Assembly: GCA_016871915.1 (NCBI GenBank)
Contig: VHBP01000013.1
Location: forward strand, 1-46,692
Reading direction: 5' to 3'
DNA: 46,692 nt
From: Gemmatimonadota bacterium
GTDB taxonomy: Bacteria; Gemmatimonadota; Gemmatimonadetes; Gemmatimonadales; Gemmatimonadaceae
The notes beneath the pieces are model-generated. The model saw only the letters and a list, made by a program, of their open reading frames with translations, had not been told where the DNA came from and did not search any database. The position numbers were made by a program, and so were the translations under genes. Within the stretch, counting starts at the first letter, position 1; each line of letters starts with the position of its first letter. Positions 5,915-46,347 of this stretch are shown here, piece by piece.

Positions 5915-7093
5915 GTGACGATACGCACCACCCGCCGCTTCGACTCCCTCCCGGTCTATCTCCTCGCCACCATTCCGCAGAAGAAGCGTGAGCTGATCGC
6001 GCGCGGGGTGGATGTCATCGATCTCGGGGCCGGGGATGCCGATCTCCCGGCTCCGCCGGCCGCAGTGGAGGCGCTCGCGCAGGCCGCACATGAGCCCACC
6101 CTGAGTCGCTACGGTTTCGGGCTCGGGCTCCCCGCCTTCCGCGAGGCGGTCTCTCAATGGATGGAGACGCGCTTCGGTCACGCGTTCGATCCCCTCAAGG
6201 AGATCGTCCCGCTGATCGGGAGCAAGGAGGGGCTCGCGCACCTCGCCTTCGCCTACGCACAGCCCGGTGATGCGGTGATCATCCCCGACCCGGGCTACCT
6301 CGCGTACCTCGGCGGGACCCTCCTCAGCGAGGCGGAGCCCTATCTCAATCCGATCACCCCGCGGACGAATTTCCTCGTCGACCTCGACGAGATCCCGTCG
6401 TCCGTTCTCGATCGCACGCGGCTCCTCTATCTCAACTATCCGAACAACCCCACCGCGGCGATCGCCCCGCTCGAGTATCTCGAGAAGGTCGTGGGTATCT
6501 GCCGCCAGCGCGGGATCGTCCTCGTCTACGACAACGCCTATTCGGAGATGACCTTCGACGGCTACGTGGCGCCGAGCATCTTCGATGTGCCGGGGGCGCA
6601 CGATGTGGCGATCGAGTTCCACTCGCTCTCTAAGACGTACAACATGACGGGGTGGCGCTGCGCCTGGGCGGCGGGGAACCCGACGGTCGTCGGGGCGCTC
6701 GCCAAGGTGAAGAGCTTCCTCGACACCGGGCAGTTCATGGCGGTGCAGCGCGCGGGGATCGCCGCGCTCGCCTCGTGGAAGGACTGGGTCCCGGGGAACG
6801 TCGAGATCTTCCGTCAGCGACGCGATGCCACGGTCGCCGCCTTCCGCGCGAACGGGTTCGAGATCGCTGAGGCGCCCAAGGCCTCGATGTATCTCTGGGT
6901 CCCACTCCCGGCCGGCGTTCCCTCGATGGCCTTCCATGAGCGCCTCATGCAGGAGGAGGGGGTCATCGTCCTCGCCGGCTCTGCGCTCGGCGCGGGAGGC
7001 GAGGGGTTCTTCCGCATCTCCTTCATCGCGAGCCCTGAGCGGATCGCCGAGGCGGCGCGTAGAGCGGGCAAGGTGTTGCAGTCGTTCCGGTAG
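5915..7093 (+). CDS. Class I/II PLP-dependent aminotransferase
   Basis: Fold-type I aminotransferase of 392 residues. The PLP lysine is Lys240 in SLSKTYNMTGWR, preceded by the cofactor-contacting YNPxNPT-like stretch (LNYPNNPTAA) and VYDNAYSEM. The SLSKTYNMTGW form is common in LL-diaminopimelate and aspartate aminotransferase relatives, so sequence alone does not settle the substrate. Its position four bases after hmgA, in the same operon as hppD, favours an aromatic (tyrosine to 4-hydroxyphenylpyruvate) role; this is inference. The start is GTG at 5915. An ATG at 5910 is out of frame. Confidence 0.85.
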   Translation: MTIRTTRRFDSLPVYLLATIPQKKRELIARGVDVIDLGAGDADLPAPPAAVEALAQAAHEPTLSRYGFGLGLPAFREAVSQWMETRFGHAFDPLKEIVPLIGSKEGLAHLAFAYAQPGDAVIIPDPGYLAYLGGTLLSEAEPYLNPITPRTNFLVDLDEIPSSVLDRTRLLYLNYPNNPTAAIAPLEYLEKVVGICRQRGIVLVYDNAYSEMTFDGYVAPSIFDVPGAHDVAIEFHSLSKTYNMTGWRCAWAAGNPTVVGALAKVKSFLDTGQFMAVQRAGIAALASWKDWVPGNVEIFRQRRDATVAAFRANGFEIAEAPKASMYLWVPLPAGVPSMAFHERLMQEEGVIVLAGSALGAGGEGFFRISFIASPERIAEAARRAGKVLQSFR

Positions 7094-7118: not shown

Positions 7119-9269
7119 GTGATCCGTCGTCTCCTCGTCGCCGCGCTCGTGGCGTTCGTCCCGGTCTCGCTCTTCGCGCAGCCGCGCGCCATGCAACTCG
7201 CCGATTGGTATAAGGTCACCACCGTCTCGCAGCCGGCGATGGCGCCCGATGGTGGGCGGATCGCCTTCACCGTGGTCACGGTGAACGAGAAGGAGAACAA
7301 GCGGCATCAGGAGGTCTGGGTGGTGCCGGCAGCGGGGGGTGACCCGGTGCGCTTCACCGCGCCGGGCTATGAGAGCTCGAGCCCGCGCTTCTCGCCCGAT
7401 GGGAAGTATCTCCTCTTCTCGTCCAATCGGCCCGGTGGGACGAGCGGGGCGGGGAACACCTGGGCGATCCGGATGGACGTTCCCGGGGGTGAGGCGACGC
7501 AGCTGACCGACTATCCGAGCGGCTCGTGGCCGCGCGACGGCAAGTTCGCCATCTTCGCCGCCCCGGTGACCGAAGACAGTGCGGCAGTGCGCGGCAACGG
7601 CACCGACCCCCTCGCGCGGATGCAGCCCATGGCGCGTCCGCCGTTCGGCGCGATCACCAAGCCCGCCGACCCGGCGCGCTTCGATGGCCGCCACATCCTC
7701 GACGCTCGCTATAAGGCCAATGGACAGGGGTTCGTCCCCAGCGCACGCCAGGCGCGCGTGATCCGTCCGCAGCAGCTCTTCACGCAAACGCCGGGCACCA
7801 AGCGCGCGGCGCTCACGAACACCGCCTATTCGCATCGCTCGCCGGTGGTCTCGCCCGATGGCAAGACGATCGCCTTCATCGCTGACGTCTCCTTGCGGCC
7901 GGACAGCGTGGTCACCGCGATCAACGATTCACTCGCGCTCCTGCCGTACGACGCCGCGCGCGACGAGCGGGAACGGAACGACGCCGACATCTATGTGATC
8001 CCCGTCTCGGGTAGCGTACCACGGAAGGTCGTCACCCTCATGGGGACCGAGTCCGACCTCACCTGGTCCCCCGACGGGAAGCAACTCGCCTTCGTCCATC
8101 GCCCGGGGCGGATGGCGCAGGGGGTGCTGACGGTCGTCGATGTCGCCAACGGCACCACGCGCGTCCTCACCCCCAACTGGCGCTATGAGCCGGCGGGGAT
8201 GGAGTGGCTCCCGAACGGTGACCTTGCGATGTGGGCCGAGATCGGGGGGTCGAGCGCATTGCATCTCGTCAATCTGCGCACCGGCGTGATGCGAGAGGTG
8301 CTCGGCGGACGGCGCAAGATCAGCGGCTTCACCTTCAATGCCGCCGGGACCACCGTCGCGTATGTCTCGACGAGCGTCACCAAGCCGACCGAGCTCTTCA
8401 TCGCCAGCGCGGACGGGAAGGGGGAACGGAAGCTCACCGCATTCAATGATTCGCTGAATGCGCAGGTCGCCTGGTCGGACGCGGAGCGGCTCACCTATCG
8501 CATGGCGCGTCGTGCGGGGTCGCGGGATAGTCTTGAGATCGAAGGCTGGCTGATGAAGCCCTTCGGGTACCAGGCGGGGACGAAGTATCCCCTCGTGCTG
8601 TACATCCACGGTGGCCCGCACAGCCAGTACGGCGAGCAGTGGTTCGACGAGACGCAGAACCTCGCCGCCGCGGGCTTCATGGTGCTCTACACCAATCCGC
8701 GCGGCTCGAGCGGATATGGGGCAGACTTCACCTACGACACGCGTGGGCGTTGGTTCGCCGAGGATTACGAGGATCTGATGAAGGCGGTCGATGTCGCCGC
8801 CGCGCGGCCCGATGTCGATTCCACCCGGATGGGCGTGACCGGCGGATCGTACGGCGGCGTCATGACCGCGTGGGTGACGGTGAAGACGCAGCGCTTCAAG
8901 GCGGCGCAGGCCGACCGGATGATCGCCAACTGGTGGTCATGGTACGGCACGAGCGACGCGCAGGGGCTGACGGAGTTCGAGTTCTACGGTCGCCCGTGGG
9001 ACAACCCCGTCATGTACGACACCCTCTCGCCGATCCGCTATGTGCGGGCGGTGAAGACCCCGACCTTCATCCTTCAGTCTGAGGAAGACCACCGCACCCC
9101 GATGACCGATGCGGAGCAGTGGTTCGCCGCACTCAAGCGGCAGGGGACCCCGGTGGAGTTCGTGCGCTACCCGCGCTCGACCCACGACCTCTCACGGACG
9201 GGTGAGCCCTGGCTCCTTGTGGATCGCCTCGGGCGACTCCGCGATTGGTTCGGTCACTGGCTCAGGTGA
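7119..9269 (+). CDS. Secreted S9-family serine peptidase (acylaminoacyl/dipeptidyl peptidase type)
   Basis: Exported serine peptidase of 716 residues, probably releasing short peptides or dipeptides outside the cytoplasm. The GTG at 7119 opens a clean signal peptide (MIRRLLVAALVAFVPVSLFAQ). The frame stays open upstream into the aminotransferase, but that part is a shadow. A beta-propeller-like region with WSPDGK/FSPDGK repeats spans about residues 40-440, followed by an alpha/beta-hydrolase domain. The catalytic triad is Ser577 (GGSYGG), Asp657 (SEEDHRTP) and His689 (STHDLS), and the oxyanion HGGP motif is present. The exact S9 subfamily (S9B or S9C) cannot be fixed by eye. Confidence 0.9.
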   Translation: MIRRLLVAALVAFVPVSLFAQPRAMQLADWYKVTTVSQPAMAPDGGRIAFTVVTVNEKENKRHQEVWVVPAAGGDPVRFTAPGYESSSPRFSPDGKYLLFSSNRPGGTSGAGNTWAIRMDVPGGEATQLTDYPSGSWPRDGKFAIFAAPVTEDSAAVRGNGTDPLARMQPMARPPFGAITKPADPARFDGRHILDARYKANGQGFVPSARQARVIRPQQLFTQTPGTKRAALTNTAYSHRSPVVSPDGKTIAFIADVSLRPDSVVTAINDSLALLPYDAARDERERNDADIYVIPVSGSVPRKVVTLMGTESDLTWSPDGKQLAFVHRPGRMAQGVLTVVDVANGTTRVLTPNWRYEPAGMEWLPNGDLAMWAEIGGSSALHLVNLRTGVMREVLGGRRKISGFTFNAAGTTVAYVSTSVTKPTELFIASADGKGERKLTAFNDSLNAQVAWSDAERLTYRMARRAGSRDSLEIEGWLMKPFGYQAGTKYPLVLYIHGGPHSQYGEQWFDETQNLAAAGFMVLYTNPRGSSGYGADFTYDTRGRWFAEDYEDLMKAVDVAAARPDVDSTRMGVTGGSYGGVMTAWVTVKTQRFKAAQADRMIANWWSWYGTSDAQGLTEFEFYGRPWDNPVMYDTLSPIRYVRAVKTPTFILQSEEDHRTPMTDAEQWFAALKRQGTPVEFVRYPRSTHDLSRTGEPWLLVDRLGRLRDWFGHWLR

Positions 9270-16927: not shown

Positions 16928-16932
16928 AGCAA

Positions 16933-17032
16933 GGGTCCAGGTGAGAGGTGTCAGGGAACAATGAGGGGTAGCATCGGAGCGTGGGCCGAATCAGGAGGAA
17001 CCTGTCACCTGGTCCCTGATCCCTGACCCCTG
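16933..17032. repeat. Heptamer-based inverted repeat between sodA and dedA
   Basis: The right half (17001-17032) is four and a half units of CCTGNNN with a strict seven-base period. The left half (16937-16957) holds three units in opposite orientation (CCAGGTG and variants). The 17-base stretches 16933-16949 and 17000-17016 are inverted copies with two mismatches. The right array forms the last codons and stop of dedA on the minus strand. Similar arrays occur near 33.4 and 46.0 kb. Confidence 0.75.
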
Positions 17033-19272: not shown

Positions 19273-22326
<3,054 letters not shown>

Positions 22327-32871: not shown

Positions 32872-33273
32872 ATGGGTGCCAAAGTCGGTGAGAGTGGTGG
32901 GCTGAACAACGAGCCGAACGTCGTGCCGATGATCGACGTCATGCTCGTGCTCCTCGTGATCTTCATGCTCGTGCAGCAGGTCCGGAAGGCGATCGACATC
33001 CAGCTCCCCGATCCCAATCCGGCGGTCGCGGTGGCCAACTCGGCGTCGAACCAGATCGTGCTCGAGGTGCTCCCGGGTGGACAGTTCGCGGTCAACCGTG
33101 AGCCGGTCACCAAGGACGATCTGCTCAAGCGGCTCACGGAGATCTACGAGCCGCGTCCGGAGAAGATCATCTTCGTGAAGGGCGATCCGAAGGTGCAGTT
33201 CCAGGAAGTCATCTACGCCATGGATATGGCGCGTGGCGCGGGCGTGAAGGTCATCGGCGTCCCGCCGAACTGA
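32872..33273 (+). CDS. exbD: ExbD/TolR-type biopolymer transport protein (copy 2)
   Basis: 133-residue second ExbD, six bases after copy 1. It shares the EPNVVPMIDVMLVLLVIFM helix with the catalytic aspartate and then diverges (VQQVRKAIDIQLPDPNPA). The two may form a mixed ExbD pair within one motor. The periplasmic end matches the family pattern KGDPKVQFQEVIYAMDMARGAGV. Confidence 0.93.
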   Translation: MGAKVGESGGLNNEPNVVPMIDVMLVLLVIFMLVQQVRKAIDIQLPDPNPAVAVANSASNQIVLEVLPGGQFAVNREPVTKDDLLKRLTEIYEPRPEKIIFVKGDPKVQFQEVIYAMDMARGAGVKVIGVPPN

Positions 33274-33360
33274 TCGAGCCACGGGACCGCATGTCCCGAC
33301 TGTGGTGCGATGCGGCGGACGAACCTTTTCTGGGGCGTCCGCCGTATCATTTTTGGGCGA

Positions 33361-33459
33361 AAGGCTGAAGGCTGGAAGCTGAAGCTTTAGGCGTTGAGCC
33401 TCCAGCCTCCAGCTTTCAGCATCTGTTTAGCTTTCATCTCTGATCCCTGATCTCTGGTG
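33361..33459. repeat. Heptanucleotide-periodic intergenic repeat before the second TonB-like gene
   Basis: About fourteen consecutive degenerate seven-base units fill the gap. The left part uses GCTG-type units (AAGGCTG, AAGGCTG, GAAGCTG), the middle the inverse (CAGCCTC, CAGCTTT, CAGCATC), and the right end the YCTGATC type. Left and middle parts are inverted copies with about three mismatches over 21 bases. The GTG start of the next gene falls inside the last unit. Confidence 0.7.
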
Positions 33460-34269
33460 TCCTCCCACCTCTCCTCCACACGCCCGCCGCTCCGGTCCCT
33501 CCACGGGATCCCGGAGCCGTCGCCGCGTGGCCGGTGGGCGGCATTCGTCTCGGCATTCGTGCACGTGGGGCTCATCGTGCTGGTCCTCCTCCCGCCCTTC
33601 TTGGCGGCGACGCTCGATCAGCCGCTGACCGCTGGCGGGGGTGGGGCAGGACCCGCCGGTGGCGGGGGCGGTGGCCGCACGGGGTCTGGGCTCGAGCCGG
33701 TCCGCGCCGAGCGCTTGGTGTATATGCAGATCGCGCCGGTCGCCGCCGCGGTCCCCCCTCCGATCCCCACACCGACCCCTCCACTCGTCCCTCCGGTGGA
33801 GAAGAAGCCCGACGTCCCCGTTCCCCCTCCGGTCTCCGTGCCGCCTGCGGCGGAGGCCCCAGCGGCCCCCGCCGCCGTCACATCGGGCGCTGGGGCCGGG
33901 GGGGATGGTCGAGGCGGCGCGGGGCCGGGGAGTGGCGGTGGGGTTGGCTCCGGTGTTGGGACGGGGCGTGGCTCCGCGAACGGGGCCGGCACGGGCGGGG
34001 GCACCAACGAGGTCTTTCCCCCGCAGGTCACCAACCTCGCGCTGCTCCCGATGCCCGTGCCGAACCGCGTGCGTCCCTACACGATGGTCGCGTGGTTCGA
34101 CGTCGATGAGCGGGGGAAGGCGACGCTCATCGCCTTCAATCCTACGAAGGACAATGCGTACAATCGCCGCATCCGCGAGACGCTGCAGGAGTATCGCTTC
34201 CGCCCGGCGACGCGACCCGATGGGTCCCCGGTGCGCGACACCGTCTCGGTGAAGGTCGAGGTGCCCTGA
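33457..34269 (+). CDS. TonB-like energy transducer / proline-glycine-rich periplasmic-spanning protein
   Basis: 270-residue protein with one anchor helix (about 28-50, WAAFVSAFVHVGLIVLVLLPPFLAA), a long Gly-rich then Pro-rich linker (PPPIPTPTPPLVPPVEKKPDVPVPPP) and a second Gly-rich stretch. The C-terminal domain (about 205-270, RPYTMVAWFDVDERGKATLIAF...ETLQEYRFRPATRPDGSPV) resembles TonB_C. The start is GTG 33457, inside a heptamer repeat and without a good ribosome site; later starts would cut the anchor. It may be a second transducer for the ExbB/ExbD motor upstream, or a structural homologue. Confidence 0.72.
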   Translation: MSSHLSSTRPPLRSLHGIPEPSPRGRWAAFVSAFVHVGLIVLVLLPPFLAATLDQPLTAGGGGAGPAGGGGGGRTGSGLEPVRAERLVYMQIAPVAAAVPPPIPTPTPPLVPPVEKKPDVPVPPPVSVPPAAEAPAAPAAVTSGAGAGGDGRGGAGPGSGGGVGSGVGTGRGSANGAGTGGGTNEVFPPQVTNLALLPMPVPNRVRPYTMVAWFDVDERGKATLIAFNPTKDNAYNRRIRETLQEYRFRPATRPDGSPVRDTVSVKVEVP

Positions 34270-45565: not shown

Positions 45566-46012
45566 ATGCGGTCCCCTCGCGCTCGGCACGTCCCACTCCT
45601 CGTCCTCCTGCTGGCGCTCGCCGCCTGCAGCGGGAAGCCGCGCGAGCATGTCATGCGACTCGGAACCGACGACTTCACCTTTCGGGTCACGGGCGATCCG
45701 ATCCCTCCGCGCGCGCTCGATGTGATCACCTACACCATCGTGGTGCAGGATCGTGAGACCAAGGAGCCGATCGCCAATGGCGAGGGGCGCCTCTTCGCGA
45801 CCAACAGCGATCGCGTCTCCGTCTGGGACGGGTTCCAGTATGGCCCGGAGCCCGGCACCTATCGCGCCCGCATCAAGTTCCTCACCGCGGGAGAGTGGGC
45901 CATCGGGCTCCAGTTCCGTCGTGATTCCACGCAGGCCCTCCAGCGCACCCTCGATTGGCGTCAGACGGTGTTGAACGAGATCATCGACACCGCGGGCGCC
46001 CCTGGCACCTGA
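45566..46012 (+). CDS. Small lipoprotein of unknown function
   Basis: 148 residues with a lipoprotein signal (VPLLVLLLALAAC) followed by a soluble domain that looks all-beta, with strands such as FTFRVTGDPIPP, VITYTIVVQD and TYRARIKFLTAGEWAIGLQF. The ending of that kind (EWAIGLQF) is reminiscent of FixH- or YtkA-like extracellular beta domains, but this is only an impression. AGGAGG lies upstream of the ATG. The last three codons are part of the CCTGNNN heptamer array that fills the gap to the next gene. Confidence 0.75.
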   Translation: MRSPRARHVPLLVLLLALAACSGKPREHVMRLGTDDFTFRVTGDPIPPRALDVITYTIVVQDRETKEPIANGEGRLFATNSDRVSVWDGFQYGPEPGTYRARIKFLTAGEWAIGLQFRRDSTQALQRTLDWRQTVLNEIIDTAGAPGT

Positions 46013-46035
46013 CCCCTGTCACCTGACCCCTGACC
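46001..46035 (+). repeat. CCTGNNN heptamer array filling the junction between two genes
   Basis: Five perfect-period seven-base units (CCTGGCA, CCTGACC, CCTGTCA, CCTGACC, CCTGACC). The array starts inside the lipoprotein gene, includes its stop codon and ends exactly at the base before the next ATG. Same unit type as the array at 17001-17032. Confidence 0.8.
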
Positions 46036-46347
46036 ATGAAGCACTTCCACCGCACCTCGCTCCACCCCGACCAGGTCCTTGCCACCGCTGACGCCTTCTT
46101 CCCGACGATCGGGATGCAGAAGGTCGCCGAAGGGGCGCGCACCCGGACCTTCAAGGGTACCGTCGGGACCCCGGAGGTCCCCTCGGGCCTCGAGCTCTCG
46201 GTCAAGATGGAGGGGGGGCACTACACCTTCATCGAGGTGCACACCGACCAGATGGGGGAGAGTCGTCTGGATCGTGGGGTGAAGACCTTCTTCGTCCGCG
46301 TGCACACCCAAGTCGACACCGCGCACACCTTCGCGCCCTCCTACTGA
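46036..46347 (+). CDS. Small uncharacterised protein
   Basis: 103-residue protein of no family that I recognise. No signal peptide or membrane segment; mixed alpha/beta composition with polar surface stretches (SGLELSVKMEGGHYTFIEVHTDQMGESRLDRGVKTFFV). It begins directly at the end of a heptamer array and lacks a clear ribosome site. Its stop overlaps the E1 alpha start (TGATG), which suggests coupling to that gene and supports it as a real gene. Confidence 0.65.
   Translation: MKHFHRTSLHPDQVLATADAFFPTIGMQKVAEGARTRTFKGTVGTPEVPSGLELSVKMEGGHYTFIEVHTDQMGESRLDRGVKTFFVRVHTQVDTAHTFAPSY

Follow-up and report, generated by a model that had tools for sequence, protein, structure and literature searches.

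The second exbD gene of the DNA studied here is followed by a hairpin and then by an array of degenerate seven-base units, which runs up to the start codon of the next gene and appears to turn from one strand to the other on its way, raising the question whether the array is a folded element of this gene pair or one copy of a repeat dispersed in the genome. The window, that is, the whole stretch of 46,692 nucleotides that was analysed, holds two further clusters of such units. The units belong to two families, A (GCTGRRR/CAGCYYY) and B (CCTGNYM), and the features concerned are the following:

32872-33273, plus strand: exbD, the second of two ExbD/TolR genes and the upstream neighbour of the array (Pfam PF02472, E 5.3e-21)
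33309-33354, plus strand: conserved terminator-like hairpin (arms 33309-33321 and 33336-33348), then TTTTT
33361-33384, plus strand: A+ arm, RRRGCTG units (AAGGCTG, AAGGCTG, GAAGCTG)
33385-33395, plus strand: degenerate spacer between the arms (hairpin loop)
33396-33423, plus strand: A− arm, CAGCYYY units (GAGCCTC, CAGCCTC, CAGCTTT, CAGCATC)
33424-33437, plus strand: two heptamers of poor fit (TGTTTAG and CTTTCAT)
33438-33458, plus strand: short B+ stretch up to the start codon (CTCTGAT, CCCTGAT, CTCTGGT)
33457-34269, plus strand: downstream gene, GTG start at 33457
16932-17032, no strand assigned: second cluster of the window, B− ... B+, flanked by two minus-strand genes, with the start of a superoxide dismutase gene on one side and the stop of a DedA-family gene on the other
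45999-46035, plus strand: third cluster of the window, some five B+ units that overlap the stop codon belonging to the gene at 45566-46012 and abut the ATG at 46036

The seven-base periodicity which an earlier note, made from the letters alone, had described after exbD is real. The lag-7 identity over positions 33357-33456 was 0.62, the maximum of the window (window mean 0.27, sd 0.05), with harmonics of 0.48, 0.42 and 0.35 at lags 14, 21 and 28 and values at or below 0.31 at every other lag up to 28. The fourteen units reported were a slight over-count, since 12 of the 14 heptamers fit the family consensus at six or more of the seven bases (the one at 33431 only at a shifted register) and those at 33389 and 33424 at only four. 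Three clear units are of the GCTG type (33361-33381), four of the CAGC type (33396-33423) and three of the CTGAT type (33438-33458), corresponding to the architecture A+, A−, B+; the family scan fuses the B+ stretch with the A− arm. Degenerate B-like heptamers are also found in the congener G013 where this B+ stretch stands.

The suggestion that the array can fold into a long hairpin was supported by prediction, with arms at 33361-33383 and 33394-33416 (23 nt, 83 % complementary) and a predicted RNA minimum free energy of −39.1 kcal mol−1, compared with −29.8 ± 3.3 for shuffled sequences (z = −2.86). Among the Rfam families above gathering score, tRNA-Ala was the only one in the whole window and the array had no match. 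An ordinary terminator at the array was rejected, as the stem has no U run after it and the terminator scan made no call.

The downstream gene had no Pfam or NCBIfam match, and its N-terminus (a short polar part followed by one hydrophobic segment) and its position suggest a TonB-like protein. Its GTG at 33457 pairs in the alignment with an ATG in G013, and the same ATG context is present in G004, so this GTG, placed in the last unit by the earlier note, is likely to be the true start; the gene caller used here favoured an internal GTG at 33559. Since the orthologs already have the ATG, the start codon is older than the array, which thus runs up to the start and does not create it. The hairpin directly after exbD (GGCGGACGAACCTTT...CGTCCGCCGTAT) occurs at the same place in seven members of the genus and predates the array. 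It was not called by the formal terminator scan, the loop being 14 nt and the limit of the scan 8. In G001 the distance from it to the start codon downstream is only some twelve bases, so that it may serve both genes. A reading of this hairpin as a promoter of the form GAACCTTT...GTATC was not supported, as such a spacing occurs once in 1.53 Mb.

The genome to which the window belongs (G000) is a 2.07 Mb assembly, 98.75 % complete, of which 1.53 Mb was sampled in stretches. Genes were called with a simple home-made hexamer model, on which gene borders and the distances of arrays from them depend, and several thresholds were picked while viewing the same data, making the p values given below descriptive. 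An excess of lag-7 identity in intergenic regions, on which the earlier note had staked the existence of a repeat system, was found in the 1.53 Mb (0.298 compared with 0.271 in coding regions), seven being the top lag among intergenic lags 3-29 and accompanied by harmonics. Although intergenic DNA makes up 5 % of the bases, 44 of the 68 lag-7 runs were intergenic. Exact matches to CAGCYTYCAGCYTYCAGC numbered 39 in the genome and those to its reversed control 0. In G021, a genome of the same family, the reversed control pattern, CGACYTYCGACYTYCGAC, had 24 matches (17 + 7), which possibly belong to another period-7 repeat or to a coding repeat.

Scanning of the intergenic regions for the unit families gave 95 arms in 70 clusters, compared with 16 arms in reversed sequence at the same score, and 90 and 5 arms, respectively, at a stricter score. 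The two families A and B account for the arrays, in agreement with the proposal of sub-families of one genome-wide repeat system. The variable bases of family A are nearly all purines (AAG 104, AAA 81, GAA 74, GAG 74, all others together fewer than 50). About two thirds of the clusters are single-armed, arm lengths range from 24 to 110 nt and spacers from overlap to 64 nt. In G000 the arrays at C60:7870-8016 and C44:64-88 are near the ends of contigs, and the assembly may therefore be broken within arrays in some places.

The paired arms were not found to be related to one another more closely than to other arms. The duplex energy of arms from the same locus equalled that of arms combined across loci, both in family A (p 0.39, n 27) and in family B (p 0.83, n 16), a comparison of limited power in that all arms of a family can pair with one another and under which selection on the common consensus is still possible. 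Arm lengths within a pair were weakly correlated, spacers varied and the relative phase was scattered. A local inversion or inverted duplication was consequently rejected, partner arms being no more alike than random arms, as was a covarying conserved RNA, for which the arm-pairing test was negative and the site is empty in relatives. The hairpin at 33361-33416 is thus what any A+ and any A− arm would form; it is an automatic consequence of the consensus, for which selection need not be invoked. Of the long hairpin envisaged earlier, therefore, the predicted folding stands, whereas an internal inversion or a conserved structure does not, considering the arm-pairing test, the single-armed clusters and the empty orthologous gaps.

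The closest relatives have approximately 90 % DNA identity around the array sites. Flanked by a hairpin and a start codon that are both conserved, the A array of the exbD gap is absent from three congeners (G013, G004 and G001) and is thus a recent insertion. When 23 sites were compared with G013, the B arrays were mostly common to both genomes, with changed variable bases and similar lengths (the array at 45999-46035 is one of those also present in G013 in altered form), whereas most A arrays were replaced by much shorter sequence, e.g. 4-16 bp instead of 75-115. Core and 7-bp spacing are retained through a turnover of unit sequences and of copy number. One intergenic site carries A+A− in one species (G000 C29:7667-7734) and B−B+ in the other (G013 C29:6493-6549), and similar swaps between A and B were found between G000 and G001, G004 and G009.

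The A pattern is abundant in only 4 of 395 genomes of the phylum, all of this genus. Family B is found in these four and in G013, with a few matches in three genomes of other families. Family A persists across the relatives but most of its sites do not, which points to movement in trans. Neither the Y1 transposase (RAYT, PF01797) nor a reverse transcriptase (RVT_1) had a match in G000, G001, G004, G009 or G013; control genomes were positive for the former. Mobility based on reverse transcription was accordingly rejected for these array-bearing members of the genus. Several A− arms of G000 (contig C6, around 6160-6190, 7925-7945 and 21760-21780) share GCTTTTCGCTT as their first motif, which hints at copying of arrays from one another.

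The pairs have a fixed polarity. In all 43 same-family pairs from G000, G001, G004 and G009 (27 of 27 in A and 16 of 16 in B) the purine-rich arm was on the left and the pyrimidine-rich arm on the right, although a few of them could be orthologous copies of each other, as with one A+A− site common to G000, G004 and G009, making the effective number slightly lower than 43. The purine-rich arm is the GCTG strand in A and the CAGG strand in B. Of the mixed pairs, A+B+ was found three times and A−B+, B−A+ and B+A+ once each, the last of these violating the rule. With respect to genes, the purine- or G-rich strand was the one nearest the 5′ neighbouring ORF, whatever the direction of that ORF, in 53 of 74 arms (p 0.0003), and among single arms the nearer border fitted this rule in 22 of 32 cases (p 0.05). 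Near start codons, 15 of 17 arrays had pyrimidines on the sense strand; near stop codons purines were on the sense strand in 20 of 26 A arrays and in only 10 of 25 B arrays. None of the 19 genes whose start abuts an array had a Shine-Dalgarno-like motif, compared with 32 % of genes genome-wide. Pairs of the own genome lay between divergent genes in 6 of 21 cases, and the purine-left order also held where genes converge and a stop codon forms either border, though such pairs are few. Supply of stop codons was rejected as the cause of the polarity by reasoning from the unit sequences, since it suits A (TGA in GCTGAAG) and not B, where the TGA-bearing strand is on the other side.

Taken together, the region is somewhat more probably than otherwise one copy of a dispersed, non-coding and non-autonomous family of degenerate 7-bp tandem arrays which has expanded in one small clade of the genus by slippage growth, ectopic copying and a filter of selection. 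In such a scheme, arrays would lengthen and shorten by 7-nt polymerase slippage and would now and then be copied ectopically to other gene borders, while selection would remove those which put purine-rich, Shine-Dalgarno-like strands into 5′ leaders; the transcript of the exbD gap would then form a purine/pyrimidine hairpin, with pyrimidine-rich, unstructured RNA between it and the GTG. Slippage alone does not place the family at empty sites, nor does it lead one to expect a single polarity in all 43 pairs, and the exchange of two families at the same sites of genomes in which RAYT transposase and reverse transcriptase were not found is hard for simple slippage. Avoidance of Shine-Dalgarno-like sequence leaves the same polarity between convergent genes, in the few cases available, unexplained. 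Alternatively, an intergenic break or gap might be healed as telomeres are, the same purine-rich heptamer being added to each 3′ end before the two ends are joined. Such an origin would give a purine arm on the left and a pyrimidine arm on the right of every strand and arms whose sequence and length are independent; it would also remove the old spacer, leave arrays that abut coding sequence and allow mixed pairs (A+ ... B+). Every one of these anatomical features is seen; nevertheless we know of no enzyme or template for such an addition, and consider it improbable. Reverse transcriptase was not found in the genome, so the heptamers would in that case come from a repair polymerase that slips or be copied from other arrays.

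Other explanations assign a function to the arrays. Paired arms could be an RNA hairpin selected as a terminator, 3′-end stabiliser or bidirectional gene boundary, comparable to REP/BIME elements, in keeping with the strong folding predicted at the exbD gap, the constant purine-then-pyrimidine order expected also of a bidirectional terminator, the purine-sense A arms near stops and the presence of A or B at the same site in different species. We nonetheless regard such a function as unlikely, as the arms are not co-adapted, most clusters have a single arm, more than a quarter of the own pairs lie between divergent genes, the stem is not followed by a U run, and at the exbD gap a separate conserved hairpin already stands after exbD and the array is missing in close relatives. 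B arrays before starts might instead be sites for a translational regulator or for ribosomal protein S1, as proposed for the TAACTGA repeats of Beggiatoaceae (PMC4679880), where the same position and rare ribosome binding sites were reported. Here too B arrays abut starts with CCTG on the sense strand of genes devoid of Shine-Dalgarno-like motifs, and those shared with G013 at orthologous starts keep the core while the variable bases change. This is unlikely too, however, considering that starts preceded by no such motif are common in this genome anyway and that many arrays lie away from starts; moreover, an array displaces the sequence upstream of the gene, so the absence of the motif may be a by-product.

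The GGG often present in B units on the CAGG strand (45 of 49 arms) and a position rule equal to that of quadruplex repeats speak for G-quadruplex or i-motif elements, the reading put forward for GGGNATC; but the canonical quadruplex pattern is absent from all 46 A arms and present in only 5 of the 49 B arms, and A obeys the same polarity, which leaves this very improbable. Mobile elements of REP/MITE type moved by a transposase would likewise be dispersed and intergenic, with inverted arms and recent gains at single sites, as the arrays are. They are scarcely to be expected here, given the lack of matches to Y1 transposase and reverse transcriptase in the five genomes searched, and the free variation of phase, spacer and arm length leaves neither a fixed element nor fixed termini.

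The closest known system is that of the GGGNATC heptamer repeats of Xanthomonas and Nostoc, which are intergenic, single or in inverted pairs, and have their G-rich strand closest to the 5′ neighbouring ORF in whatever direction that ORF runs (Rehm et al. 2015, PMC4692102). Like those repeats (GGGAATC, GGGGA(C/T)T), the arrays have 7-bp units repeated from two to many times, follow the same position rule, vary in length and sequence between close relatives and are spread over unrelated genes. Three successive units of GGGNATC or of GGGGAYT had 0 matches in the 1.53 Mb. Unlike the Xanthomonas and Nostoc repeats, family A has no canonical quadruplex pattern and one and the same site may carry either family, depending on the species; in addition, the majority of A sites were gained recently, while of the Xanthomonas repeats 83 % are common to the sister species (PMC4692102). 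Slippage as the cause of heptamer abundance is itself a published hypothesis, to judge from its citation in PMC4692102. Because family A, with no canonical quadruplex, obeys the position rule, to which G-quadruplexes had earlier been tied, quadruplex formation cannot be its general reason.

B arrays also resemble the TAACTGA direct repeats of marine Beggiatoaceae, many of which lie just upstream of start codons at which a canonical ribosome binding site is rare (MacGregor 2015, PMC4679880); both are intergenic heptamer arrays, and CTGA is common to that unit, CCCCTGA and GGCTGAA. The TAACTGA arrays are direct, with one indirect repeat in the Orange Guaymas genome (PMC4679880), whereas inverted pairs are common here and the units are degenerate. 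Two successive TAACTGA units had 0 matches here. The arrays are similar to REP/BIME elements in being dispersed intergenic repeats able to form hairpins, and differ from these palindromes in their 7-bp tandem structure and in having no fixed palindromic unit, no conserved foot and no Y1 transposase in the genome; identity with a REP/RAYT system was rejected on the absence of that transposase and of a fixed unit. For the STRR heptanucleotides of cyanobacteria, no inverted-pair polarity is known to us. These STRR, of which there are three kinds in Calothrix as cited in PMC4692102, are likewise dispersed intergenic 7-bp tandem arrays, a likeness by description.

No paper on heptamer arrays of the A or B unit types was found in the open-access literature, and the arrays represent a new variety, not of the quadruplex type, within the intergenic heptameric simple-sequence repeats of bacteria. 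Heptamer arrays are over-represented in bacterial intergenic DNA and have hardly been studied. In the present clade, each site can be compared between genomes that have the array and genomes that lack it, making the origin of the polarity, in the mechanism of formation or in selection, directly testable. A similar unit, CAGCTNT/GCTGANA, is found in Acidobacteria, Deltaproteobacteria, Omnitrophota and others as intergenic pairs of the opposite order (loci L263, L266, L272, L281, L295, L301, L304, L306 and L308). Among the matches listed, at least 20 pairs have CAGC on the left and GCTG on the right and 3, all inside open frames, have GCTG on the left, and no locus has both orders. From these sequences, the polarity seems to be fixed per lineage or per unit family.
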